This document shows positions 2,214 to 64,000 of a DNA stretch of 64,000 nt, piece after piece. Within the stretch, counting starts at the first letter, position 1, and every line of letters begins with the position of its first letter. The stretch is from Neocallimastix lanati (nom. inval.) (taxonomy: Eukaryota; Neocallimastigomycota; Neocallimastigomycetes; Neocallimastigales; Neocallimastigaceae): the NCBI GenBank assembly GCA_016946835.1, contig JACVTC010000021.1, forward strand, positions 969,501 to 1,033,500. The letters are read 5' to 3'. The notes under the pieces were generated by a model. That model did no database searches. It was given only the letters and a program-made list of their open reading frames with translations, and was not told where the DNA came from. The position numbers and the translations under genes were made by a program.

Positions 2214-3076
2214 TGTAAGAAACTATTAAATAAATTATATTTTAAATAGTTTCTTTTATGATTTAAAAATTTAGAAGATTAAAAAAATTTAATTAAAATT
2301 TAATTAAAACAGTTTTCAAAAATATATTAAAAAAAAATAAAAAAAATTTTTATCATAGATTGAATTATTTAAAATTCTTTATTAATATATTTTATAAAAA
2401 ATAACTCTTGATTTCCTAAAAGGAAATCAATCGTTCTTTTATACATTTTGATTTATATTTTTTTTTGAATAATTATTTTATTTTAATAATTATTATTTAA
2501 TTAATTACTTATTTTATTACTAATAAATCATTATTTCTAATATTTTATTATTTGATCATTTGTTATCTATTTTTATTTATTTTTTTTATTTAATTATTAA
2601 TTAAAATTATTTAATTTGTTCATTATTTATTTTGTTTATATTGAATATATATTGCTAATTTATTATTAAATAGTCTGTACTAGTCTAATTGGTAATTCAT
2701 CAGGAAAAGACTAGCAGAAAAACCTGATGAAGTGATAATGTGATTTATTAATATTAAATAATAATAAAAAACCAAATTGTCATTGGAAAAAAATTATTTA
2801 ATTTTAGATATTAATAATTAATTAAATTTTTATTATATTTAATTTTAATTAATATAAATATTTATTTATTTTGATAAAATTATTTAGTTTTTATTGGTTT
2901 TTAAAATGGAAATCAAGAATTAAAATTTATAATAAATAATAATTTTAGTATGATATTTAATTAAGTTTATATAAATTTTAATTTAGTATTTAATAATTAT
3001 ACTTATCCATAATAATAAATATTAATAATATTAATATTTAACTAAGGAAATGGATAATTTATCTAAATTCCTTACA
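2214..3076 (-). repeat. 5' LTR of element E3 (family E, about 863 bp)
   Basis: Runs TGTAAG to CTTACA on the plus strand, giving short inverted LTR tips. It lies directly upstream (minus sense) of the E3 PBS and gag. It contains the TATA box near 2440 and the self-primer match near 2400. It shares the family E core (AATAACTCTTGATTTC) with the LTRs at 22261, 60600 and 62012. Unlike E1, E4 and E5 it has lost part of the GATCGATAT block. Confidence 0.75.
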
Positions 3077-3085
3077 CAACAGTAT

Positions 3086-3163
3086 TGTTACAGATACATG
3101 GTAACATTAAACCTATCCAATGATAGTTCTCTGGTTACGTAATGTATCTATAATCAGTTAGCA
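3086..3163 (+). repeat. Fragment of family B LTR start
   Basis: Diverged copy of the first ~78 bases of the B LTR (compare 24021 and 49022). It keeps the CAGATACATGGTAAC, TATCCAATGATAG and GGTTACGTAA blocks. Only the LTR tip is present, joined directly to an A-family RNase H fragment. Confidence 0.7.
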
Positions 3164-3164
3164 T

Positions 3165-4274
3165 TGTTTGTTATTTAACTACAATTTTTAACATACTAAA
3201 AGTTATAACCCATCTAGATTGACAAGCATTATTTGGTTCTTTATTATTAAATAAGCCTACTAAAGGTTTATGATCAGTATATAAAATAGTATCATATTTA
3301 TTACCGATAAAATATGGTTTAAATTTTAAACAACAATAGTAAGCAGCTGTGCCTTCTAAATCAGTAATACTATAATTTATTTCAGTAGGTTTTAAAGATC
3401 TACTAATGTATAGAATTGGATGTTCGATGTTATCTTTATCTTTCTGCATTAATACACCACCTATTCCATCTAATGAAGCATCCGTTCTAATTAAAAATTG
3501 TTTATCATAATCTGGATATTTAAGAATAGGAGCTTCAATAAGTTTTTCCTTAAGAATTTGATTTTGAAGGTTCTATCAATCCATTTCTTATTAATTTACT
3601 TATTTCTTCTCTTAGTATACTCATTTGTTTCTTATTTGCTACTCGATACATTCTTTGTTTAATTGGCATTCGACCACTTATGATTTTTATTTTATGACTT
3701 AGTAATTTCGATTTACCTAAATCATCTGTATCAAGTGCTAATTCATTTATATTATTTAATAATAAAAATTTCAGTTTGTTTCTAATTTTTGTTGGTGTTT
3801 TAGCCGCAATTTCATGAATAGTTATTTCCTTTGCACTTTTAAAATTCTTATCAGTATTTTCAATCAAACTATCAATATTTTTTATTACACTGTTTTCATA
3901 ATTCCTTTTATTATTAATTTCATTTATTTTTGCTAATAAAGAATAATTATTTTGTAAAGAATTTTTATTATCATTTTTGTTACTACTTATAACGAAATTA
4001 TTAATATCATTAATATGACGATTAATTTCAAAAGAATTTTTATTATTATCATCTTCATTAAAAATTGAGGAAAAATTTTTATTACTAATAGTATTATCAA
4101 CATCCTTAGAAACTATATTATCACTATTATTATTACAAAAATTTTTAGAAGGTTTATCAGTATTAATATTATTTTTATTAAGGTTTTCAGAAAGATTATT
4201 AATATTATTTTTATTAAAAATTTCAGAAAAATTATTAATATTATTTTTATTTCCAAAATTATTATAAGGATTAT
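3165..4274 (-). pseudogene. Family A pol fragment (A2) with RT deleted
   Basis: In minus sense this holds an Asn-rich linker (4274-3880), the pre-RT segment ending in EPSKS (about 3560), then RNase H (DGIGGV to about 3171; TDHKPL near 3270). It is almost identical in places to the intact family A pol at 31881. About 725 bp of RT, including the YMDD site, is missing. The deletion joins the equivalents of 34250 and 34975 at a short shared AT-rich string and shifts the frame. Integrase is absent because the copy is cut at 3165. It is a dead fragment. Confidence 0.8.
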
Positions 4275-27168: not shown

Positions 27169-29780
27169 TGCAAGATGGGTCTGAGTACTAAGAATTTGTG
27201 CCAGAGGCCAAAATAAGTAATCTTCGTACCAAAGAGGGGCTCCAAGATTTAAATGTGCTGTACGATACTGGATCACAGATCAACATGATCCATCCGCAGT
27301 TAGCCAAGGAGATGGGACTCAAGACAGAAGACCGTCCCCTAACGTTCACTACTGCCGCTGGTAAAGTGCTGATACCACAGGTTATGGAAGAGTTCAAGAT
27401 TAAGATTAAGCTGGTCGAAGAGCGTACTGGTAAAGTCAAATGGTATGACTTTAATACAAGATGCAGGCTAGCCGAGGCTATGCCGAGAACAATCATTCTG
27501 GGATCAAGATTCATGGATAGACATTTAATCTATAGAAAGATTGACGTCCATGATCAACAGCCTAAGGTATATAAAATAGATGGCGAAAGACCAGGGCTAC
27601 CAGATGTAGACTCACCAGAAGAGTGTGCAGGTGAAAGTATCTACATGGTGCAACTCCCAGAAGAAAGAGAAGAAGCTGTGCAAAAGGAGATTCAACCTAC
27701 AGCGAGAATTACAAAAATCATAAATCAGGTTATTGATAACCAGAAGTTGAAAGACACGGTGTATGAATTAACGAGGCAATATTACCGTGATAGAGGAATT
27801 GAGTATACAATGGATTACTACGATTACTTAGTGGATTACGACAAATGGGCAGATTGGTTCAAGGTACAAAAGACTAAAAATCTAAAGGAGAGTGAAATTA
27901 ATAAAAACCCTACGGAAAGTAGTGCACAAATAGCTAGCCAGACAAAAGATCATCTAGCCATGATCTCGCAAGAGGATTCGGAAGCGGAAACAATCAGAAA
28001 AGTGGGACTTGAGAAGCTATTGTCAATAGGCGAAATTATAGATAAGTATTATGAAGACTTAACGGAAGCCTTTAATGAAGAAATCGCTGAGACATTACCA
28101 GAGCACAGGCCGTATGATTGTAAAATAGAACTAGAGCCTGATGCACCACTTTATAAAGGAGCTATCTACCCAACGAGTCCTAAAGAAGAGAAAGCACTTA
28201 AAGAATATATTGATGAAAATTTAGCTAAGGGGTTTATAAGAAGGTCAGAATCTCCGGCGGGTTACCCTGTATTGTTCGTACCGAAGAAATCAGGTGAGCT
28301 ACGACTTTGCATGGATTATCGCAAACTGAACCAATGGACCAAACGCAATGCCTATCCGATACCAAGAATTAGTGCAGTGTTCGAAGCTATGAAAGGAGCA
28401 GTCGTGTTCTCTAAGTTCGATCTAAAATCTGCCTATAACTTGGTACGAATTCGAGAAGGTGATGAGTACAAGACAGCCTTCAACACCAAGTTTGGACACT
28501 TTGAGCATTTGGTAATGCCTTTTGGGCTAACCAATGCGCCAGCAGTGTTTCAAAGCTTCGTGAATGATGTCTTCAGTGAGAATATCGGGAAGTACTGTCA
28601 AGTCTACCTAGATGACATCGTCGTATATTCCAAAACTTTGGAGGAACATGTAGAGCATGTTCGAACGATTTTAAAGAAGCTGATTCAACATAAACTCGTA
28701 GCTAAGAAGTCCAAATGTGAGCTACATAAGTTAAAGATTTCATTTCTAGGTCATGTGGTCAGCAAGGATGGTGTAGAGACTGACCCAGAAAAGATTAAGG
28801 CCGTGGCAGAATGGCCACAACCAGAAAATATCAAGCAGATGCAAAGCTTCTTAGGCTTTTGCAATTATTACAGGAATTTTATTAAGAATTTCTCTGAAAT
28901 AGCCAAACCGCTATTCAAAATGACCTCAAAGAAAGAAAAATTTGAATGGAATGAAGAAGGATTCAATTATTACAGGAATTTTATTAAGAATTTCTCTGAA
29001 ATAGCCAAACCGCTATTCAAAATGACCTCAAAGAAAGAAAAATTTGAATGGAATGAAGAAGGATTGGCCGCGTTTCACAAATTAAAGGAAATGCTTACCT
29101 CTCCGCCAGTGCTAGCTTACCCTGACCACGAGAAACAGTTCTTCGTTGAATGTGATGCTAGTAATTACGCGATAGGAGGTGTGCTGTCACAGAAAGGAGA
29201 TGATGGTACCCTTCATCCTATATATTATTATTCTAAGACACTTAGTAAGGCTGAAGTAAATTATTCGATTACAGAGAAAGAACTATTAGACATTAAGACT
29301 GCTTTTACAGAATGGCGACACTTGCTTCAAGGTGCGAAGCATAAGATTATTGTTTATAGTGACCACAGAAATCTGTTGTTCGCTACCAAACCACAATTAT
29401 TAACTCCTAGGCAAATTAGATGGCAAGAACTATTCGCCACATACTGGTTTGAAATAGTTTACAGACCTGGGAAGAAAAATGGTAAAGCTGACGCCCTCTC
29501 AAGAGTTGAAACAGAGAAAACTGAGGGTAAAAAATTTGATAAAGATAGTCTTTTAAAACCCGAACAATTGGTAGGATTTGATGACGTAGATGGAGAAGCT
29601 AGTTATCTAGCCTTAGCTACCAATTTCGTGGATGATATCAAACAGGCCTACCGACAGGACAAAATGGCCCAAGAGATTATGAAAGATCTAGCAGAAGAGG
29701 CCAGAAATAATTATAACAAGAAGCATTGGCTGGAAGTAGATGGCCTTCTGGTTAGAAAGGAAAACCCTGAACAAATTTAC
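27168..29780 (+). pseudogene. Element B Pol, part 1: protease, RT, RNase H
   Basis: The pol ATG (27168-27170) overlaps the gag stop as TGATG. A TAA at 27189-27191 then interrupts, and the frame is open from 27192. Domains: protease LYDTGSQINMIHP (about 27255); pre-RT LPEHRPYDCKIEL (28095); MDYRKLNQWTKRNAYPIPRI (28310); MPFGLTNAPAVF (28515); YLDDIVVYSK (28605); RNase H ECDASNYAIGGVLSQ (29145) and YSDHRN (29355). A perfect 102-bp in-frame tandem duplication (28862-28963 and 28964-29065) repeats 34 residues of the RT-RNase H connection. The reading is split at 29780 by element C and resumes exactly in frame at 47663. Confidence 0.85.
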
Positions 29781-29785
29781 GTGCC

Positions 29786-29801
29786 TGTAACGAATCGTAG
29801 A
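29786..29801 (+). repeat. First 16 bp of element C 5' LTR
   Basis: TGTAACGAATCGTAGA, preceded by the 5-bp duplication GTGCC (29781-29785; partner 47663-47667). The LTR is split here by element A; TAGA (29798-29801) is A's 4-bp target duplication, repeated at 42766-42769. The remainder is at 42770-43273, giving 520 bp in all, equal to the right LTR. Confidence 0.85.
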
Positions 29802-31868
29802 TGATACGGGCTGGGGTTGAAACACTAAGATATTCAAAACAAAAAAATAAATATTAACACATAACTATAAAAATAAATTTGGAAACAAGAAAAAAAATTA
29901 AATTTTAAAATATTCTTTATTTAAATTTAAAATTAAAATTATTTGTTCCAAGTATTAAAAAGAAAGAAATTTATTCTTCTTTTTATACTTTTATTTTAAT
30001 ACATTTTATTTATTATTAATATATTCTTTATAAAAAAAAAAAAACTATTATAACTATTTTATTTTAATTTTTAACTATTATTTTAAATTATTTTTTAAAA
30101 AAAAAAATAACATTTATTAAATAAAAATATAAAAAAATTAATTTGGAGCTTGTATCACGAAGGGCATTCCAGGCGGTAGCTTCTTCATGATATTGTTATT
30201 CAGAGAGAAAATTATACAGAATTGATATTTTCTGTATTTTAGATCATTTTTATTATTGGAATTCTTCTGTATTTTAGTTCATTTTTATTTTAATAAAGAT
30301 TTAATTTATTTTTAATTTTGTTTTATTTTTAGTTTATTTCAAAGGTTTTAGAAAATATTATACAGAAACTTATAATTCTGTATTTTACATCAAATATTTA
30401 TTGAAATAGGTTTTTATTATTCTTAATATAAAAATAAGAATTAGTAATGATTTAAATATTATATAATTTTTAATAAGAATATTTAGTAATAATTTTTATT
30501 ATATTTAATATTAATAAAATATTTAATAATTATTTTTATTAGATTTGATATTAATAAAAGATTTTAATAAGAATATTTAATAATAATTTTTATTATATTT
30601 AATATTAATAAAAGAATTTTATAAGAATATTTAATAATAATTTTTATTATAAAAGATTTTAATAAGAATATTTAATAATAATTTTTATTATATTTGATAT
30701 TAATAAAAGAAATTTATAAGAATATTTAATAATAATTTTTATCATATTTGATATTAATAAAAGATTTTAATAAGAATATTTAATAATAATTTTTATTAGA
30801 TTTGATATTAATAAAAGAATTTTATAAGAATATTTAATAATAATTTTTATTATAAAAGATTTTAATAAGAATATTTAATAATAATTTTTATTATATTTAA
30901 TATTAATAAAAGATTTTTATTAGAATATTTAATAATTTTTATTATATTTGATATTAATAAAAGATTTTAATAAGAATATTTAATAATAATTTTTATTATA
31001 TTTAATATTAATAAAAGAATTTTATAAGAATATTTAATAATAATTTTTATTATAAAAGATTTTAATAAGAATATTTAATAATAATTTTTATTATATTTAA
31101 TATTAATAATAGATTTTTATTAGAATATTTAATAATTTTTATTATATTTGATATTAATAAAAGATTTTAATAAGAATATTTAATAATAATTTTTATTATA
31201 TTTAATATTAATAAAAGAATTTTATAAGAATATTTAATAATAATTTTTATTATAAAAGATTTTAATAAGAATATTTAATAATAATTTTTATTATATTTAA
31301 TATTAATAAAAGATTTTTATTAGAATATTTAATAATTTTTATTATATTTGATATTAATAAAAGATTTTAATAAGAATATTTAATAATAATTTTTATTATA
31401 TTTAATATTAATAAAAGATTTTTATTAGAATATTTAATAATTTTTATTATATTTGATATTAATAAAAGATTTTAATAAGAATATTTAATAATAATTTTTA
31501 TTATATTTAATATTAATAAAAGAATTATATAAGAATATTTAATAATAATTTTTATTATAAAAGATTTTAATAAGAATATTTAATAATAATTTTTATTATA
31601 TTTGATATTAATAAAAGATTTTTATTAGAATATTTAATAATTTTTATTATATTTAATATTAATAAAAGAAATTTATAAGAATATTTAATAATAATTTTTA
31701 TTATATTTAATATTAATAAAAGAAATTTATAAGAATATTTAATAATAATTTTTATTATATTTGATATTAATAAAAGATTTTAATAAGAATATTTAATAAT
31801 AATTTTATTTTATTATTATTAAGAGTATTTAATAGGAAATACAAGGTATTTAGTGACACCCCGTATCA
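29802..31868 (-). repeat. 3' LTR of element A, long form (2067 bp)
   Basis: TGATACGGG to CCCGTATCA. It has the same length as, and by eye the same sequence as, 40699-42765. From about 30474 to 31800 it consists of roughly two dozen AT-rich units of 50-60 bp (TTTAATAATAATTTTTATTA plus GATATTAATAAAAGA). The polypurine tract AAGCGGGGAGATTA lies at 31882-31869 on the minus strand. Confidence 0.9.
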
Positions 31869-31880
31869 TAATCTCCCCGC

Positions 31881-34800
31881 TTAAGATGAGACTTCGTCCC
31901 CTGAAGTCTGATTATACCAAGTATAATAATGAACAAGATTTTTCTGGTGTACATTTCTGTCAGCTATTTCACCAGTGTAAATATCACAAATACAAGCGGT
32001 ATTATAATTCATTTGAACAATTCTAAAAGGACCAGTGTAAAAGGGGTCTAACTTTCTTCTTGAGAAATTTCTAACTAAAACTAAGTCCCCTGGTTCAAAA
32101 ACAGTATTCATAGATTTTTGTTGTTTTCTTCTATTTTCCCATAATTTATTAGCATTATCAATATTAGCAGTGGCTTCCATAATCCATTTATGATGAGTTG
32201 TAAATTTTCTAATTAAATATTCATCAAAGGTTTCATTTATATTTCTATCATTATATGCAATTGTTAATTCGAATGGTTGTAGATCAGTTCTACCATATAA
32301 GAGTTCAAAACTAGAAAATTTTGTAACTTCACTTTTGCAAGTTCTTAAGGCCCATAAAGCAACTGGAAGAATTTCATCCCAATTCTTTTCTGTTCCTCCA
32401 AGTAGTCTAATATATTTTATAATTTCTCTATTTCTATTTTCAACTTGGCCATTACTTTCAGGATGGTAAGTACTGATGTAATGAACATAAACATTATATA
32501 AATCTAAAAATCCTTTTGTAGCATTGGAAGTAAATTGCGGACCATTATCAGTGATTAAAATTTCAGGAATGCCATGTCGAGAAAATACATTAGTAAGAAA
32601 CTTAATAACGTCTTTAGATTCAATTGTAGGAAATGGTTCGGCTTCTACCCATTTTGTAAAATAATCAACTAAAACAATTATGTATTTATTATTTGATTTA
32701 GTGATAGGTAAGGGTCCTATAATGTCTAAACCAACTCGAGTAAAGGGTAAACCTGGTTTAGTAGCAAATGATTCAGTACCTCTATTAATTGGTTGTGGTC
32801 TGTTCATTTGACAATCATGGCAAGTTTTAACAAGTAATTCTACATCTTTGGACATGTTTTCCCAATAATATTTCCTTTTAAGTCTATCGTATGTTTTATA
32901 ATAGCCTTCATGTCCAACACTATGCGCAGCTAATAATAGTTCTATTTTCTCTTCTTTGTTTTCGACAAATTTACGAATATTTTCTCCGTCTTTAAAATAT
33001 TTAATATTATCTATAATAATTATTTTCTTTTTCAAATATTCTTTAATAGCAATACTATTATTTAATTCTTCAACTTCAGTATTATTACTGTCATCATTAG
33101 TTGTAACAAAAATTATTTCATTTTCATTAAAATTATTTTCAATGGAATCTTTATTTAAAATATAATAATTTTCCAAATTATTATTATCTTTACTTTTATT
33201 TAAATTAATATTATTTTCATTATAGTTATCATTAATTTTAGAATTACATATATTAAGATTTTTATTATAAGAATTTTCAGAAATATCAATTAAAGGATTT
33301 TTATCAAAATTATTTTCATAAAAATTTTTAATACAATTTTTATTAATATTGTTATAATTAAGTTTTTCAGAAAAATTTTTAATATTATTTTGATTAAGGT
33401 TACAAAATTCCTTTGAAAAATTTTTAATATCGTTACTACTATTATTACAATTATTATTAAAATTTTCTAAATAAAAATTTTTGTCATTATTATTATTATT
33501 ATTATTAAATTTTTCATAATAACTATTAACACTGGAATTATTATTTAAATTTTTAAAAATATAATTATTATTATTATTATTATTATTATTTAATTTATTT
33601 AAAGAATTAATTATATTATTATCTAAATTATTTTTATTAAAATTAACGTAATTATTTTCTTCAGAAATATTATTTAAAGGATAATCATTTTTATTTGTAT
33701 TATTCATTCTATTTATATTTTCAATAGAATCGTAATTAATATTTTCATTATTATTCAAATGAATAAACAAAGTATTATTTTTAATTTCTTTATTAATATT
33801 TTTAGAGTCAGGAATTAATCGAGAAAGTGCATCAGCAATAACATTTTTCTTTCCTTGTTCATATTTAACTACAATTTTTAACATACTAAAAGTTATAACC
33901 CATCTAGCTTGACGAGCATTATTTGGTTCTTTATTATTAAATAAGCCTATTAAAGGTTTATGATCAGTATATAAAATAGTATCATATTTATTACCACTAA
34001 AATATGGTTTAAATTTTAAACAACAATAATAAGCAGCTGTGCCTTCTAAATCAGTAATACTATAATTTATTTCAGTAGGTTTTAAAGATCTACTAATGTA
34101 TTGAATTGGATGTTCGATGTTATCTTTATCTTTCTGCATTAATACACCACCTATTCCATCTAATGAAGCATCCGTTCTAATTAAAAATTGTTTATCATAA
34201 TCTGGATATTTAAGAATAGGAGCTTCAATAAGTTTTTCCTTAAGAATTTTAAATCTTTCTTCAGTTATATCATCCCAGATATATTTTATATTTTTCTTTA
34301 ATAGTTTAAATAATGGTTGAGCAATTATAGCAAAATCTTTAATAAATTTTCTATAATATCCAATTGCACCTAAGAAAGATCTTAATTGAGTAATATTTTT
34401 AGGTGATTCCCATTTGGATATTACATCTACCTTTTTGGGTACTGGCTTTATACCTTCTGTGGATAAAATATGGCCTAATACTTCAACTTCTTGTTTAATA
34501 AAATGGCATTTTGATAAATTAGCCTTTAGACCATTTTCTTTAATAATATCAAAAACTTTTTGTAGATCCAATATGTGTTGTTCTAAGGTATCAGAAAATA
34601 TTACTAAATCATCCATATAAATGAACATACATTTACCAATTAAAGGCAAGAATATTCTGTTCATTTCACGTTGGAAAGTTGCAGGAGCATTACAAAGTCC
34701 GAATGGCATAACTTTGTAATTATAATTTCCAAACATTGTTGTAAAGCAAGTTTTATCTCTGTCTTCTTTTTCCATAGGAATCTGATGGAAACCAGAAAAT

Positions 34801-37463
34801 AAGTCAAGCGTGGTTAAGTACTTAACTTTATTGCCTATAGAAAATAATATTTCTTCTATATAAGGTAAAGGATATGCGTCTTTAATAGTAATATCATTTA
34901 ATTTTCTATAATCCACTACCATTCTCCATTTACCATTCTTTTTAGGAACGAGAATAACTGGGAACGACCATGATGATTTTGAAGGTTCTATCAATCCATT
35001 TCTTAATAATTTACTTATTTCTTCTCTTAGTATACTCATTTGCTTCTTATTTGCTACTCGATACATTCTTTGTTTAATTGGCATTCGACCACTTATGATT
35101 TTTATTTTATGACTTAGTAATTTCGATTTACCTAAATCATCTGTATCAAGTGCTAATACATTTATATTATTTAATAATAAAAACTTTAGTTTATTTCTAA
35201 TTTTTGTTGGTGCTTTCGCCGCAATTTCATGAATAGTTATTTCCTTTACACTTTTAAAATTCTTAACAGTATTTTCAATAGAAATATCAATATTTTTGAT
35301 TACACTGTTTTCATAATTCTTTTTATCATTAATTTCATTTATTTTTGTTAATAAAGAATAATTATTTTGTAAAGAATTTTTATTATCTTTTTTGTTACCA
35401 CTTATAACGAAATCATTAATATCTTTAACATGATGATTAATTTCGAAAGAATTTTTATTATTAACATCTTCATTAAAAATTGTGGAAAAATTTTTATCAC
35501 TAATAGTATTATCAACATCTTTAGAAACTATATTATCATTATTATCATTACAAAAATTTTCAGAAGGTTTATCAGTATTAATATTATTTTTATTAAGGTT
35601 TTCAGAAAGATTATTAATATTATTTTTATTAAGGTTTTCAGAAAGATTATTAATATTATTTTTATTAAAAATTTCAGAAAAATTATTAATATTATTTTTA
35701 TTTCCAAAAATATTATAAGGATTATTAGTATTATTAATGCTATTTAAGTTTTCATAAATATTATTAATATTATCTAAATCTTTAGAAATATTATCAGTAT
35801 TATTAACATCATATAAATTTTTAGAGAAATTATTAATATTATTTTTATTATTAAAATTTTCAGAAGAACAATTTTTATTATTAATACTAATCGAATTATT
35901 GATATTATTTTTATTAATAGGTTTTTCAAAAATATTATTAATTCTATTATTAAAAATTTTATTAGAAAAATTTTTACTATTAAAATTTTTATTAGATAGA
36001 TTTTTACTAGAAAAATTTTTATTAGAAAAATTTTCGATATTATTATTATTATCGATATTAATTTCATTTGGATTATCATGATTATTTATAGTATTAAAAT
36101 TTTTGTTAGTATTATTATTATTAATATCTTTATTAGAAGAACAATTATTATTATAAATTTTAGAAATTTTATCATTATTAATTTTACATCCAAATACATT
36201 CTTTAAATAATTATCATTATTATTTATATTGCAAAAATTATTTCCATCTTTATCATTATGATTTCCAAAGGAATTATCAATATCATTATTATCATTATTT
36301 TCTTCATATAAAATTTGAATATATTTATCTTCGGTGGTTAATAAATAATCAACTAGCACATCTTTATTCAATTCTTCTTCGAATTCATCTTTAATATCAT
36401 CTTCTTCATCTTCTATTTCGGTCACACTTTCAAAACTTCCTATCTTTCGTATCTCATCTGTTTTTTGATACAAGGTGTGATCAGAGAAGTCCATAATAAT
36501 CTTCATTCTAGCTAGCGCATCCACACCAATTAATACTTGGAAAATATCATCTTTTTCAACCAATCTAAAGATTTCCTTAGAAGTAATATTTCCAATTGTT
36601 ATTTCTATTTCATATAATTTTGAGATGAGCGTGGTATTAGTACAAGCTTGATATAAAGTTTCTTTAATAGCAGAAATTGGTTTAAATGGAATTTTATTAT
36701 TTATCATGAAGGTTTTGGTGATCATATTAATAGAAGAACAGGAATCTAAATATACTGTAGTTTCTACGTTTTCTACCTTACATTTTGTTTTTACAATCTT
36801 ATCTTTCTTAATTGTTGATAAGATTGTTTCTTCATCTTCTATAATTGTTGTAAACTTTAAGGCTTTTGATAATTCAGTTCTCAATTTAGGATTGATATTG
36901 AGCAACTGTCCGATGGTAATATTAGCGAACTTATTTCCAATATCGTCCACTATATTATAATTATCTTGATTTCCTGTTATTTTTAATTTTTTTGTAATAT
37001 TTTCCTTATTGGATTTTTCTACCTTTTTTTCACTTGGAAGTTGTATTTCTTTAGCTAATTCTTTTATTTCTTTTGCTCTTTCTTTCTTGTTTCTTCTTTT
37101 TGCTTCTTCAATTGAGGGTTCATTTATAAAAGATGGATCAAGATGATTTAACGCTTCTGTTTCTTTTTGATTTTCATTTCCTTTATTATTACTATTAGTT
37201 TCACTTTCTGGTTCCATTTCCATTTGTTCCTGATTATTTGATGGAACTTTAATTGGTTGAGGATTTTCTTTTAAACTTTTCTTAGTTGCTTTCTTATATG
37301 GTTTATTTTCATTAGTTTTTCTACTTCTTCTTTCAGCTACAATGGCTATTTCTTTATTATCTTCTATATTCGAAGATTCTTTAGTTCCAGTAAGTGAATT
37401 AGTTAAAAGAGTTGTATTGGTTTGATTTATGGGAGTATTCCTTCTCCCATTTAGAAGTTTAAA
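31881..37463 (-). CDS. Element A Pol: protease, RT, RNase H, integrase
   Basis: Open in one frame from the slippery site at the end of gag; the first ATG is at 37223 (1780 residues from there), but frameshift entry is more likely. Residues counted from that ATG: protease YLDSCSSINMI (about 155; DSC instead of the usual DSG), Asn-rich linker (about 310-630), RT VVDYRKLNDITIKDAYPLP (about 765) and IYMDDLVIFSD (about 868). RNase H IRTDASLDGIGG (about 1018) and YTDHKPL (about 1087) follow, then a second Asn-rich linker (about 1140-1410). Integrase has HHCC (HSVGHEG ... CHDCQ, about 1440-1475), D in GLDIIGPLP, TDNGPQF (about 1558), E in NGQVENRNREI and a YTGPFRI module, with no chromodomain. No internal stop. 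A Ty3/gypsy lineage distinct from B, C, E and F. Confidence 0.9.
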   Translation of the reverse strand, partial: FKLLNGRRNTPINQTNTTLLTNSLTGTKESSNIEDNKEIAIVAERRSRKTNENKPYKKATKKSLKENPQPIKVPSNNQEQMEMEPESETNSNNKGNENQKETEALNHLDPSFINEPSIEEAKRRNKKERAKEIKELAKEIQLPSEKKVEKSNKENITKKLKITGNQDNYNIVDDIGNKFANITIGQLLNINPKLRTELSKALKFTTIIEDEETILSTIKKDKIVKTKCKVENVETTVYLDSCSSINMITKTFMINNKIPFKPISAIKETLYQACTNTTLISKLYEIEITIGNITSKEIFRLVEKDDIFQVLIGVDALARMKIIMDFSDHTLYQKTDEIRKIGSFESVTEIEDEEDDIKDEFEEELNKDVLVDYLLTTEDKYIQILYEENNDNNDIDNSFGNHNDKDGNNFCNINNNDNYLKNVFGCKINNDKISKIYNNNCSSNKDINNNNTNKNFNTINNHDNPNEINIDNNNNIENFSNKNFSSKNLSNKNFNSKNFSNKIFNNRINNIFEKPINKNNINNSISINNKNCSSENFNNKNNINNFSKNLYDVNNTDNISKDLDNINNIYENLNSINNTNNPYNIFGNKNNINNFSEIFNKNNINNLSENLNKNNINNLSENLNKNNINTDKPSENFCNDNNDNIVSKDVDNTISDKNFSTIFNEDVNNKNSFEINHHVKDINDFVISGNKKDNKNSLQNNYSLLTKINEINDKKNYENSVIKNIDISIENTVKNFKSVKEITIHEIAAKAPTKIRNKLKFLLLNNINVLALDTDDLGKSKLLSHKIKIISGRMPIKQRMYRVANKKQMSILREEISKLLRNGLIEPSKSSWSFPVILVPKKNGKWRMVVDYRKLNDITIKDAYPLPYIEEILFSIGNKVKYLTTLDLFSGFHQIPMEKEDRDKTCFTTMFGNYNYKVMPFGLCNAPATFQREMNRIFLPLIGKCMFIYMDDLVIFSDTLEQHILDLQKVFDIIKENGLKANLSKCHFIKQEVEVLGHILSTEGIKPVPKKVDVISKWESPKNITQLRSFLGAIGYYRKFIKDFAIIAQPLFKLLKKNIKYIWDDITEERFKILKEKLIEAPILKYPDYDKQFLIRTDASLDGIGGVLMQKDKDNIEHPIQYISRSLKPTEINYSITDLEGTAAYYCCLKFKPYFSGNKYDTILYTDHKPLIGLFNNKEPNNARQARWVITFSMLKIVVKYEQGKKNVIADALSRLIPDSKNINKEIKNNTLFIHLNNNENINYDSIENINRMNNTNKNDYPLNNISEENNYVNFNKNNLDNNIINSLNKLNNNNNNNNNYIFKNLNNNSSVNSYYEKFNNNNNNNDKNFYLENFNNNCNNSSNDIKNFSKEFCNLNQNNIKNFSEKLNYNNINKNCIKNFYENNFDKNPLIDISENSYNKNLNICNSKINDNYNENNINLNKSKDNNNLENYYILNKDSIENNFNENEIIFVTTNDDSNNTEVEELNNSIAIKEYLKKKIIIIDNIKYFKDGENIRKFVENKEEKIELLLAAHSVGHEGYYKTYDRLKRKYYWENMSKDVELLVKTCHDCQMNRPQPINRGTESFATKPGLPFTRVGLDIIGPLPITKSNNKYIIVLVDYFTKWVEAEPFPTIESKDVIKFLTNVFSRHGIPEILITDNGPQFTSNATKGFLDLYNVYVHYISTYHPESNGQVENRNREIIKYIRLLGGTEKNWDEILPVALWALRTCKSEVTKFSSFELLYGRTDLQPFELTIAYNDRNINETFDEYLIRKFTTHHKWIMEATANIDNANKLWENRRKQQKSMNTVFEPGDLVLVRNFSRRKLDPFYTGPFRIVQMNYNTACICDIYTGEIADRNVHQKNLVHYYTWYNQTSGDEVSS
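37437..37463 (-). promoter_or_regulatory. Candidate -1 ribosomal frameshift signal between gag and pol of A
   Basis: The minus strand reads T TTA AAC in the gag frame (37463-37457). The 6-nt spacer TTCTAA contains the gag stop. A perfect 7-bp hairpin ATGGGAG/CTCCCAT with an 8-nt loop follows. Pol lies in the -1 frame and is open from the heptamer onward. All three parts of a classic -1 signal are present at the right spacing. Confidence 0.7.
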
Positions 37464-38779
37464 GGTTGATTATTGTTATTAAAGAAATTTTGGTTATTAT
37501 TAATAGGATCTATGTTATTATGATTAGGATTTGAACTGTTATAACTAGTATTATTATAATTAGTATTAACATTAAAGTTTCCATTTGAGTTATAATTATT
37601 TACATTATTAGTATTAATATTAGAGTTTCTATTTAAATTACTAATATTATAATTACCATCATAGTTATTATTATTGTTTAGGTTATGATTTCTGTTTGTA
37701 TTGCTGTTATTTGTAATGTAGAGATTATTGTTATTAAGTCTTCCAGTAGCTTCCATATCAGCTAGTTCTTGATAAGTATAAGGACAATCTTGCATCCTAT
37801 GACCAGGTTGATGACATTTAAAACAATTTAGATTAATATTATTAGACATAAAATTTTGATTTCTTAAATTATTTTTAATTCCGGGTACTTTATTATTGCT
37901 AAAATTATTATTCATGTTGTTAAAATTTGGATTATTGTTATTATAATTATTACCACTATTATAACCATTTCGGAAATGATTTATATTTCTGTTATTAATA
38001 GAGTTATTATAATTATTATTATAAGAATTTCGATAATTATTATTATAATTATTTGAATGATTATAACCATTATTTTTATTGTAATTATTATAATTATTAT
38101 AGTTATAATTATTATAATTAGAGCGATAATTATTGTATTCATAATTATTAGGATTGTCATAATTTCTATTATTATAATTATTACTATAATTATTTGGAAA
38201 AATAGAATTTAGACCTCCATAAGTATTGGTAAACATAACGACATTTCTATTTCTATTGGGCATTTCAGAAGCAGTCTCTGCAAGTTCAGCTATTTTAAAT
38301 GCTTCTTCTAAATTAGCTGGTTGAGAAGTTATTACTTCCTTTCTAGCATATGGACGACTTAATAATGAATCCGTGTAATCATTAATAGTAATAAATGCTT
38401 GACTTTCTGGAGTAAGTGATCCGTATAATTTACCGTATCTCCAGTTAAAGTCTTTAATTGATTCACCCTTTTGTATTTTGAGTGATTTTAGGTTAAAGCA
38501 TTTTTCTTGAGGAGTAATATCTAAAAATTTTTCAATGGCAGTTTTAATATCCGTAATACTTGGATATATGATCATTTCAGCCTCTTCATCTTCTTCTTTA
38601 AGATCTTCAATTACTCCTTTTAATCGTCCAGGAACACATTCTTTTGCCCAAGCAAACATTTTTCTAGGGTCATCAATATCTGAGAGTTCCATTACCCTAT
38701 TGAACTCTTCAGCCCATGATTCTATGTCCCTATCGAAACTACCAAGTCGTGGCAATAATTTAGCTATTTCGCTAATCTT

Positions 38780-38782
<3 letters not shown>
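37451..38782 (-). CDS. Element A Gag, Asn-rich with CCHC knuckle
   Basis: Starts at ATG 38782 (MKISEIAKLLPRLGSFD), directly after a sense-strand run of about 50 A. The frame stays open through the A-run, but a Lys run is an unlikely N-terminus. The capsid-like core covers about residues 1-190 (RDIESWAEEF, IEKFLDITPQEKC, SIKDFNWRYGKL). A low-complexity Asn/Tyr region (about 200-320) precedes the zinc knuckle CFKCHQPGHRMQDCP near 325, and another Asn-rich tail follows. It forms the particle and binds RNA. The stop TAA at 37453-37451 lies inside the frameshift signal. Homologous to the decayed H Gag. Confidence 0.9.
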
Positions 38783-38838
<56 letters not shown>

Positions 38839-38885
38839 AAGAACACAAAAGAACACAAAATTGCTTAAATAGAAACGAATATAAA

Positions 38886-38926
<41 letters not shown>

Positions 38927-39273
38927 TGGATATATATATATTTTATTTTTATTTATTTTATTTAAAATATAGTTTTATAATGAAATTTATTTTCTAATAT
39001 TTATATATATATATAGATTTTAACAAAAAAAAAATGATAAAGAAAATCTTTTTTTTTTTTTTTTTTTTTTAAAAAAAAGGAAAGATAAATATTATGGAGA
39101 AAATATATTTATATATTTTCTTTTATTAATAAAGAACAATAAAGAACACAAAATTTCTTTTATAGAAACGAAGATTTAGATTTTTTTTTTTTTTTTTTTT
39201 TTTTTTATTATTTAATATTATTTAAAAATTGTGTTTTACAGGAAATTTATTTATAATTTATAAGTATATATAT

Positions 39274-61733: not shown

Positions 61734-62733
61734 TAATAATTTAATTAAAAAATTATAATTAAATTATTAATCATTAATATTAGCTCTAACTGCTAATATT
61801 AAAGGTTTAGAAAAGAATCATACTTACCTATGGTTCTTTCTAATTATTGAGTTTATTATAACGAATTATAATAGACGAAACACTGAAATTGATAAAGAAA
61901 AGTTTTAATTATAAAATTTGTTTTTAAAATAATTTGTTTTATTAATTATTAGAAACTTTAAATGTTAAAACTATTTATTATTATTATTATTATTATATTA
62001 TAATTGTTATAATAATAACTCTTGATTTCTCAAAGAGAACTCAAGAGCCTTATTTATACTTTTTTGTCAAAATAAGGTTAAAATCAAAAGGGGTTCTAAT
62101 CTTAACAAATCTCTTATCTAGGAAAAGACTAGAAGAAAAACCTAGATAAGTTTTTGATCGATATTCTATCCATATCGATCATCGCGTTAATTAAGTAAAA
62201 CCGATTACTTTTAAGAAATAATTGGAAAAACCTTAATTAACCGATTACTTAATCTAATATAATGATCGAAAATGAAAGAATAAAATAATGAAAATTATTT
62301 CGATCATAAAATTTAAAATTTAATCTATTTAGTTCTATTTTATAGAACTTTACATAAAAATATAAAACAATACATTAATAATAAAAATACATCATTAATA
62401 AAATACAGAATACATGATAGAATACAGAATACATGATAAAATACAGAATAGTGTTTTAGTTTATGATTTAATAAGTAAGAGAAAACTAAAACTAATAAAT
62501 TTAATAATTAAGTGAATAATTAAATAAATTTAATATTATTTTAAATGTATAAAAATTATTTAATTAAATAAAATTTTAATATTAAACTAAATAAATTTTT
62601 AATATGTAATTAAATAAATTATTAATTATAATTAAGTGTATAAATGAAATATGAATTAAATAAAAGTTATATTAATTATAACTTAACTAAGAGAATATAA
62701 TTATTTTGTTGAAAATAATTATATTTTCTTACA
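61732..62733 (-). repeat. Solo LTR of family E (E5, 1002 bp)
   Basis: TGTAATAATTT to TTTTCTTACA, same direction as E4. TATA box (about 62060, minus) and exact self-primer match (62012-62023). Three repeats of TACAGAATACATGA type near 62400-62445. Confidence 0.75.
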
Positions 62734-62779: not shown

Positions 62780-63250
62780 TAAAGTTAATAAGAAAAATAA
62801 GAAATAAATATATTATAAATATTAAATAGTTAAATAATTTTATAAATAATTGTTTATAAACATAATTTTAAAATGAAGAATTAGTATAAATAGTTATTAG
62901 AAATAATACTTTAATAAATGTTCCTAATTATCCAGTAAAATTAGTATATAATATTTTAATAAAATTAGAATTAATATTGATTAATTTTATATTTTGATTA
63001 TTAGAATTATGTTATAAAATAATTGTATTAAAGGTTTACTAATTACCTATAAATATTAGAATATTAATAAAACAATATTTTATTTAAAAATGAATTAAAT
63101 ATTTTAAGTGTTATTATTTAAATATATAAAGACTTGTTATGGACAAGTATAAAAATTGTCACGAATACTAGTTGATTTGAAGTTAAAATTCACTATTAGA
63201 TCAATTGAAATTTAATTTAGTTATTGACAAAAATTATTTTAATTCGATTT
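62780..63250. repeat. Repeat L, second copy
   Basis: Resembles 23500-23990 (ATTTATAAACA, TGTTCCTAATTA blocks). No gene. A small CTTGT/ACAAG hairpin is at about 63132-63146. Confidence 0.4.
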
Positions 63251-63270
63251 AATTATAAAAATAAATATTA

Positions 63271-63303
63271 GAAACATTAAATAATTAGAAACCAAAGGGT
63301 TTG
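63271..63303 (+). repeat. Left 33-bp direct repeat of the Rep segment
   Basis: GAAACATTAAATAATTAGAA plus ACCAAAGGGTTTG; 32 of 33 bases match 63908-63940. The period is 637 bp. It lies just beyond the end of the Rep reading frame. Confidence 0.75.
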
Positions 63304-63304
63304 T

Positions 63305-63658
63305 TTAAACTTTAAGTTTTGGTTGACCAATTTCATCGACAAGAATGGCCTCAACTCCCTCATCCTTATGCTTTTCATCTCTGGCCCAACAATAGTCGAT
63401 ATTCTGCTGGGCAGATCCATAACATTTTTCAATGTGAGCCCCGTGTAGCTTTCTTCTTGCAATATATTTAGATTGGTTATATTACACAAACATATGGTAA
63501 TGCTTGTTACTACTTCCAACGTGTTCAGTTACCAACATATACGCAAATTCACTTAATTTTAAAAAATACTGTTTTATATCTTCATAAAATTCCAAACTGG
63601 CTTCATTTATTGTTAAAATAAAAGCAGTACCAGTATTTCTTCCTTCAGTGTTTACCAT
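63305..63658 (-). pseudogene. CRESS-DNA-virus-like Rep endonuclease domain, one stop
   Basis: Rep proteins nick the replication origin of small circular ssDNA viruses and related plasmids. From ATG 63658 there are 117 codons with a TAA at codon 59 (63484-63482); the frame continues on both sides. Rolling-circle motif I is FILTIN (about codons 11-16) and motif II is HYHMFV with the HUH pair (about 53-58). A GAHIEKCYGSAQQNIDYC block follows. It contains the motif III tyrosine, but four residues later I read no lysine where YxxK is usual. The frame ends at 63307-63305. The SF3 helicase half of a typical ~300-residue Rep is absent. The stop and the missing half make it non-functional as it stands. 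Confidence 0.8.
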
Positions 63659-63680
63659 TCTCAATAAAAAATCTCAAAAA

Positions 63681-63739
63681 AGCAGTCTGTAAAAAAATAA
63701 AAATTTCTCTAATTTTTATTGTAGTATTACCAGACTGCT
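63681..63739 (+). promoter_or_regulatory. Candidate rolling-circle origin hairpin with TAGTATTAC
   Basis: AGCAGTCTG (63681-63689) and CAGACTGCT (63731-63739) form a perfect 9-bp stem. The nonanucleotide TAGTATTAC (63722-63730) lies inside, touching the right arm. A second perfect 10-bp stem AATAAAAATT/AATTTTTATT (63696-63720) fills most of the loop. It is 22 bp upstream of the Rep ATG. The nonanucleotide fits the CRESS consensus NANTATTAC and is on the strand opposite to Rep. Confidence 0.7.
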
Positions 63740-63742
63740 AAA

Positions 63743-63776
63743 TAAGAGATTTTAACTCTTAAGAGATTTTAACTCT
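63743..63776 (+). repeat. Two iteron-like tandem repeats beside the hairpin
   Basis: TAAGAGATTTTAACTCT occurs twice head to tail without a gap (63743-63759, 63760-63776). Each unit is itself nearly palindromic (AAGAG/CTCTT). It is 3 bp from the hairpin, the usual place for Rep-binding iterons. Confidence 0.6.
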
Positions 63777-63907
63777 TATTTATACTTTTTTGAAATCTTG
63801 AAAAATTTCAAAAAATTTTTGAAAAAAAATGAGGGAAATCGTCAGATACCCGTAATTTTTTTGAAAACAATAGTAAAAATTAATTTAACACAAAATAAAT
63901 TAAATAT

Positions 63908-63940
63908 GAAACATTAAAGAATTAGAAACCAAAGGGTTTG
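63908..63940 (+). repeat. Right 33-bp direct repeat of the Rep segment
   Basis: GAAACATTAAAGAATTAGAA plus ACCAAAGGGTTTG, one mismatch to 63271-63303. Sequence after the repeat differs from that after the left copy. From 63941 to the window end I see nothing identifiable. Confidence 0.7.
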
Positions 63941-64000
63941 GACTTATTTATTAAAGATAATTTAATTTAATTTAACCCTTAAGAATTTGATAAAAATAAC

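Follow-up and report, generated by a model that had tools for sequence, protein, structure and literature searches.

The locus lies towards the right end of the window, by which we mean the whole stretch of DNA analysed here (64,000 nucleotides of a Neocallimastix lanati contig, JACVTC010000021.1, positions 969,501 to 1,033,500 of the forward strand). The window is very AT-rich and, judged by eye, filled with retrotransposon-like open frames, including an 870-aa frame at 27192–29804 on the plus strand in which some 34 residues (NYYRNFIKNFSEIAKPLFKMTSKKEKFEWNEEG) are directly duplicated, and a 1862-aa frame at 31881–38974 on the minus strand with long asparagine-rich stretches, upstream of which lies a 507-aa gag-like frame that opens with a long run of lysines. 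The genome holds at least 150 matches to CBM_10 (150 of 1440 candidates scored) and 14 control genomes hold none; CBM_10 is the dockerin-type domain of anaerobic fungi (Neocallimastigomycota), and it marks the host as one of these.

At 63157–64000, on the plus strand, the window contains the LTR of a host retrotransposon, which starts with TGTCACG and continues beyond the window to about C124:1034497. We assign the element as a solo LTR because the same 5 bp, AAAAT, stand on both of its sides (63152–63156 and again past the LTR end) and because its termini read TG at the start and CA at the end. When the 5-bp flanks of nine LTR copies were inspected, both ends were visible in eight, of which, by eye, six match and two do not. 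Within the LTR sits a 604-bp insert (63304–63907), read here as a piece of a CRESS-type virus. Of 477 candidate copies of the LTR, 40 were scored; 30 besides the window copy were fetched, and every one of them runs on uninterrupted, without this insert. Aligning 18 of those 30 sets the boundaries of the insert and reveals a duplication of 33 bp of LTR sequence around it, with the left copy at 63271–63303 and the right copy, differing by one mismatch, at 63908–63940 (both plus strand). No termini belonging to the insert itself are present, and this arrangement was found once in the genome. Because it interrupts the solo LTR, the viral piece is younger than the LTR. An arrangement in which two separate LTR copies flank the Rep piece is ruled out, since AAAAT brackets the entire LTR. 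Contamination is likewise ruled out, since the piece sits inside a host LTR with duplicated flanks on a 1.7-Mb contig, and integration in host DNA is borne out by the same setting.

A CRESS-type Rep can be read on the minus strand of the insert (63658–63308), limited to its endonuclease half and in a single frame that falls into two open pieces. Piece 1 (63485–63658) begins at an ATG, carries the motifs FILTIN and HYHMFV and is 84% identical in amino acids, over 58 codons, to a related locus, C412. An in-frame TAA (63482–63484, minus strand) splits the reading just after HYHMFV, and piece 2 (63308–63481) covers the motif III region, which reads IDYCWARD, and contains GAHIEKCYGSAQQNIDYCWARD. 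Piece 2 is 56% identical over 57 codons to an open Rep frame at another locus, C15, and the window pieces range from 56 to 58% amino acid identity against that frame. The preliminary description of this DNA had recognised FILTIN and HYHMFV as parts of a Rep domain, and both lie in a 63-aa minus-strand frame (63673–63482). Motifs I, II and III of HUH endonucleases are all present. The rule for motif III is YxxK; the K at +3 after the tyrosine is absent in four of the four family copies that reach this motif. The superfamily 3 helicase half is absent from the window copy and the examined flanks, and as homology to Rep breaks off at 63311, which is 7 nt short of the insert edge, its loss is a simple truncation, which accounts for the earlier observation that only the endonuclease half is present.

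In Pfam scans, listed at E up to 1 for the window pieces and up to 0.1 for their relatives, piece 1 matched REP_ORF2-G2P (E 0.027) and piece 2 matched Viral_Rep (E 0.057), both below cut-off, with ThsA_Macro (E 0.21) next for piece 2. No geminivirus Rep family appeared in these scans at those E values, the only Rep-related families being Viral_Rep, REP_ORF2-G2P and RNA_helicase. A profile of five family pieces (hereafter family A) searched against the PDB gave five matches at E ≤1, all five named Rep or replicase (E 0.0037–0.023), which we take to be Rep of porcine circovirus 2 (PCV2). Because the single pieces score below the Pfam cut-offs, the identification as a CRESS Rep is carried by the family and not by the window pieces.

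The plus strand carries, upstream of the start codon of Rep, an origin-like hairpin (63681–63739) with a perfect 9-bp stem, five of its pairs G/C, and a 41-nt loop. The left arm, AGCAGTCTG, occupies 63681–63689 and the right arm, CAGACTGCT, occupies 63731–63739; TAGTATTAC (63722–63730), the presumed Rep nick site, directly abuts the right arm and lies on the opposite strand to Rep, and a second, inner 10-bp A/T stem lies inside the loop (63696–63705/63711–63720). Among 150 first-order Markov randomisations of the window, 56 contained a perfect 9-bp stem flush on any NANTATTAC, and the real window also has one pure A/T stem of this kind, at 4128. Such a stem with at least four G/C was found in none of the 150 Markov copies and in this single case in the real window. 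DNA folding of 63675–63745 gave −13.8 kcal/mol (z −7.8), a value that none of 200 shuffles reached, and a shorter stretch (63678–63742) gave z −6.75. On the strength of the G/C-containing stem and of the fold, the hairpin is not chance. Besides the window copy, C412 is the one family-A copy known to extend into the origin; it shows about 80% DNA identity to the window copy, keeps the left arm, with one change, and the loop, lacks the right arm, reads TAGTATTATTAC and folds poorly in this region (z −0.85). No nonanucleotide hairpin was seen beside Rep at C15 or C744, and at the locus C124:680k about 50 bp lie between Rep and an LTR. The reading of the window hairpin as an origin is supported by a second, unrelated Rep locus in the genome, C643 (see below), which also has a TAGTATTAC hairpin, with the nonanucleotide on the strand opposite Rep.

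Starting 3 nt past the hairpin foot, the 17-mer TAAGAGATTTTAACTCT stands twice, in perfect copies without a gap (63743–63776, plus strand). The position beside the hairpin foot is a usual one for iterons, and in the assembly searched (199 Mb, 762 contigs) the 17-mer has two exact matches, both in the window tandem. Perfect tandem repeats are common in the window (nine rows, against 0 or 1 in each of ten Markov copies), so the repeats alone carry less weight, and since the C412 match ends at 63742, directly before the repeats and not including them, they are known from one copy only. The preliminary description had named both the 9-bp stem holding TAGTATTAC and the two gapless repeats, all of which were found, and had called the repeats iterons; this role, in which Rep would bind the 17-mers, is unproven, and of the hairpin and repeats together the related copy C412 retains the left arm and loop only.

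Beyond the tandem, the 18-mer CTTATTTATACTTTTTTG (63775–63792, plus strand) has 345 exact matches in the genome, compared with 0 for its reversed control, and recurs at 62049–62066 of the window within a dispersed host repeat; it may be a Cap-side promoter element or captured host DNA. Local alignment of 63743–63907 with the host repeat at 62 kb was no better than with shuffles (256 of 500 as good), and nothing significant is shared beyond the 18-mer. A noncoding match, C759, shares only 63779–63885 with the window, at 77%; a putative Rep remnant beside that segment ('MLVTEH') was dropped because 41 of 300 shuffles align as well. What speaks for a viral nature of 63743–63907 is only its place within the same insert. 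It is possible, if doubtful, that only the Rep piece and hairpin are viral, the tandem repeats and everything behind them up to 63907 having come along as host or filler DNA, which would make 'iterons' a misreading. The end of the C412 match just short of the repeats and the abundance of the 18-mer, one copy of which stands in the dispersed host repeat at 62049, fit such a capture, whereas the shuffle result for the 62-kb repeat, the lack of any other exact match to the 17-mer in the genome and the start of the 17-mers at a usual place for iterons argue against it.

Eight further loci in the genome match the family Rep or Cap-like proteins: C412, C15, C124:680k, C744, C224, C335 and C699 match Rep, and C112 matches a partner frame only. 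A weak additional match was found at C760 (28% identity, E 7e-4). For C224, C335, C699, C112 and C760 the evidence consists of search rows alone. The genome thus supplies Rep relatives and, as described below, a capsid candidate, and no second copy of the window arrangement. The family-A copies that were read all look partial or decayed, except for the open Rep frame of C15 (286 aa; L043:3596–4453, minus strand; C15:406095–406952), which spans endonuclease and helicase. In Pfam this frame matches Viral_Rep (E 0.041) followed by RNA_helicase (E 0.0024), both below cut-off, and it has no match when queried alone against the PDB. It is open although its motif II reads HYP, a form common to C744, and its Walker A region reads GPSAIRKS; both domestication and a recent insertion of a divergent Rep are possible.

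At C124:680k, Rep lies in pieces with GKPGSGKT, tail to tail with a 243-aa frame at C124:681710–682438, the partner frame; the top two PDB matches of its helicase piece are replication-associated proteins (E 0.0023 and 0.0038), and five weaker matches (E ≤5) are unrelated by name. C744 (L045:1738–4643; C744:186237–189142) holds, in order, a helicase piece, partner-frame pieces on the opposite strand, and Rep, and is therefore longer than one unit, as head-to-tail integration would give. From such decayed copies, the unit period of family A can be roughly estimated at ~2.7 kb. At C224:1470588–1471692, overlapping helicase matches hint at a tandem pair of helicase stretches. The Rep fragment of C412 has, a few hundred bp away, an inverted repeat (L002:2188–2651 / 2887–3352) with arms of ~470 bp that are 90% identical. 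Between the window pieces and C412, the differences over 76 codons number 7/7/28 at codon positions 1/2/3, indicating that the two lines diverged mostly as working genes, under protein selection, a pattern that fits viruses diverging before integration. The family-A relatives suggest that anaerobic gut fungi have been hosts of such viruses.

The partner frame lies on the other strand beside Rep at two loci (C124:680k and C744), and stands alone at C112. It is conserved at these three loci with 52–68% identity and had no match in profile searches or the PDB. Farther on, C744 carries a lysine-rich frame, much of it one poly-K run. Judged by its place, its conservation at three loci and the lysine-rich frame at C744, the partner frame is a candidate capsid gene.

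Family B consists of two loci, C643 (Rep at L046:3919–4293, minus strand) and a decayed copy at C24:509421–509779. The Rep of C643 scores above cut-off for Viral_Rep (E 5.5e-07) as well as for RNA_helicase (E 4e-06); a match to coronavirus NSP15 (E 0.00059), below cut-off, was disregarded. Its best PDB matches are Circoviridae Rep, in entries that we take to be porcine circovirus 2 structures, and the C643 Rep is circovirus-like and unrelated to family A. Its origin, at about L046:4497–4538, is a textbook one: the stem is 14 bp long, with 13 Watson-Crick pairs plus a single G-T, and TAGTATTAC, which is the circovirus nonanucleotide, stands on the strand opposite Rep (z −7.7); the C24 copy has TAGTATTAG and a weaker fold (z −1.75). 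The preliminary description had considered a Rep relic that keeps its origin and iterons to be more unusual; the window copy does keep its origin hairpin, and it is not unique in this, since the unrelated C643 also keeps one. The C643 origin is a concrete signature to seek in gut viromes.

We conclude that the window insert is very probably an endogenous fragment of a CRESS-type virus, comprising Rep endonuclease and origin hairpin, captured in a solo LTR. This agrees with the earlier recognition of a CRESS-type Rep relic beside an origin hairpin, in that the family profile finds PDB Reps and relatives hold the helicase half and a capsid candidate; the broken Rep frame, the end of homology at 63311, the 41-nt loop with its second stem and the LTR setting had been left out of that account. 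The points against a viral fossil are the sub-cut-off Pfam scores, the missing right arm of C412, a loop of 41 nt that is longer than that of C643, a motif III without K at +3, the host-abundant 18-mer behind the repeats, and the lack of any profile or PDB match for the partner frame. In the ancestral virus, Rep would have nicked TAGTATT/AC in the hairpin, and the circle would have been copied by rolling circle, with Rep and the putative capsid gene diverging from the origin and meeting tail to tail. A linear piece of ~600 bp, spanning roughly the first 117 codons of Rep, the origin and ~170 nt beyond it, would then have been captured at a staggered break inside the pre-existing solo LTR, a step that we infer because 33 bp of the LTR are duplicated. 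What remains in the window is dead, a fossil fragment that most likely serves no function today.

Integration driven by Rep at the viral nick site, instead of capture at a random break, is quite unlikely: the C412 match does stop within about 12 nt of the presumed nick, which may only reflect fast intergenic change, and the window insert ends 170–420 nt from the nick, with a 33-bp target duplication. A further possibility is that the Rep genes derive from bacterial CRESS-type plasmids and not from a virus. In the collections searched outside the genome, no relatives were confirmed among viral contigs, phages, plasmids (by protein) or GTDB prokaryote contigs. Searched by DNA, the plasmids yielded a single match, to Arsenophonus, at 69% over an AT-rich stretch that lies outside the insert, and this was attributed to chance. 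An IMG/VR contig, L081, which matched the Rep-motif pattern, was rejected, as the part read in three frames had stops around the motif and nothing Rep-like by eye. CRESS-like Reps are known on bacterial plasmids, according to the available portion of one source (PMC6668415), yet a plasmid origin appears highly unlikely given the lack of a plasmid match at E up to 0.01, the lack of a confirmed one in GTDB contigs and the partner frame, putatively a capsid gene, that accompanies Rep at two loci. Finally, the suggestion that the locus is a reduced mobile unit, with Rep endonuclease, origin and repeats that move or are moved by rolling circle in the manner of a minimal ssDNA transposon, is largely refuted and has only the slimmest chance of being right: the window copy and C412 both hold the endonuclease half only, running from the origin region to mid-endonuclease, but the arrangement was found in one copy, C412 ends elsewhere in Rep and at ~80% DNA identity is not a recent copy, the insert edge cuts through Rep and is bordered by a duplication of host LTR sequence, other loci hold other virus parts with other ends, the reading is broken by a stop, and constant ends with several near-identical copies, as expected of a Rep transposon, were not found.

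As a captured viral fragment, the window element is an endogenous cressdnavirus, of a known kind; its lineages and host phylum are apparently new within the open literature searched. Among the matches listed from open-licence literature, judged by title and the start of the abstract, there was no report of CRESS elements in anaerobic fungi. A 2021 study by Zhao et al. is said to cover CRESS viruses across eukaryotes and may include fungi of this phylum. Many cressdnaviruses from gut samples lack known hosts. Anaerobic gut fungi may host at least two unrelated cressdnavirus lineages outside Genomoviridae, a reading that we regard as evenly poised: one circovirus-like, represented by C643 with its TAGTATTAC origin, and one a new family-level lineage whose Rep-Cap genome would be ambisense and very roughly 2.7 kb in size, with an atypical motif III and an origin formed by a double hairpin whose loop is 41 nt. 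If this holds, some orphan CRESS viruses of animal faeces would be viruses of gut fungi. One account recognises no cressdnavirus family in fungi other than Genomoviridae (PMC9603141). The presence in a single gut fungus of Rep loci from two unrelated lineages, one of which has a capsid candidate beside Rep, points to a host group that this account does not consider. Other surveys, as far as their available portions go, had a different scope: a rumen virome survey assigned all of its 109 ssDNA vOTUs to Microviridae, with mycoviruses outside its analysis (PMC10465536), and in the text of an RNA-virus survey of early-diverging fungi the terms 'ssDNA', 'single-stranded DNA' and 'CRESS' are absent (PMC7482067).

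Compared with known systems, both the family-A endonuclease profile and the C643 Rep resemble Circoviridae Rep, which gave their best PDB matches. Unlike in the aligned PDB sequences, which read HLQ, motif II here is HYH, and the window copy further differs from Circoviridae in its motif III without K at +3, its nonanucleotide opposite the Rep strand and its 41-nt loop. Rep relics occur in many eukaryotes, those of fungi being geminivirus-like in the available portion of one study, which describes a geminivirus-like transposon of Tuber with 42 Rep copies and 37-bp terminal inverted repeats (PMC3198968). The loci described here are, like the Tuber relics, remnants of circular ssDNA virus Rep in a fungal genome, but they show no geminivirus Rep family in Pfam and no transposon ends. 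Whole, partial and tandem integrations of CRESS Rep and Cap in Entamoeba and Giardia chromosomes have been used as host-range evidence, as given in the available portion of that report (PMC7493932). Here the host is a fungus, the family-A copies that were read look partial or decayed except for the open C15 frame, and no exogenous relative was found, unlike in the elements described there; like those elements, the loci of N. lanati combine CRESS Rep and Cap-like frames in the chromosome of a gut eukaryote (PMC7493932).
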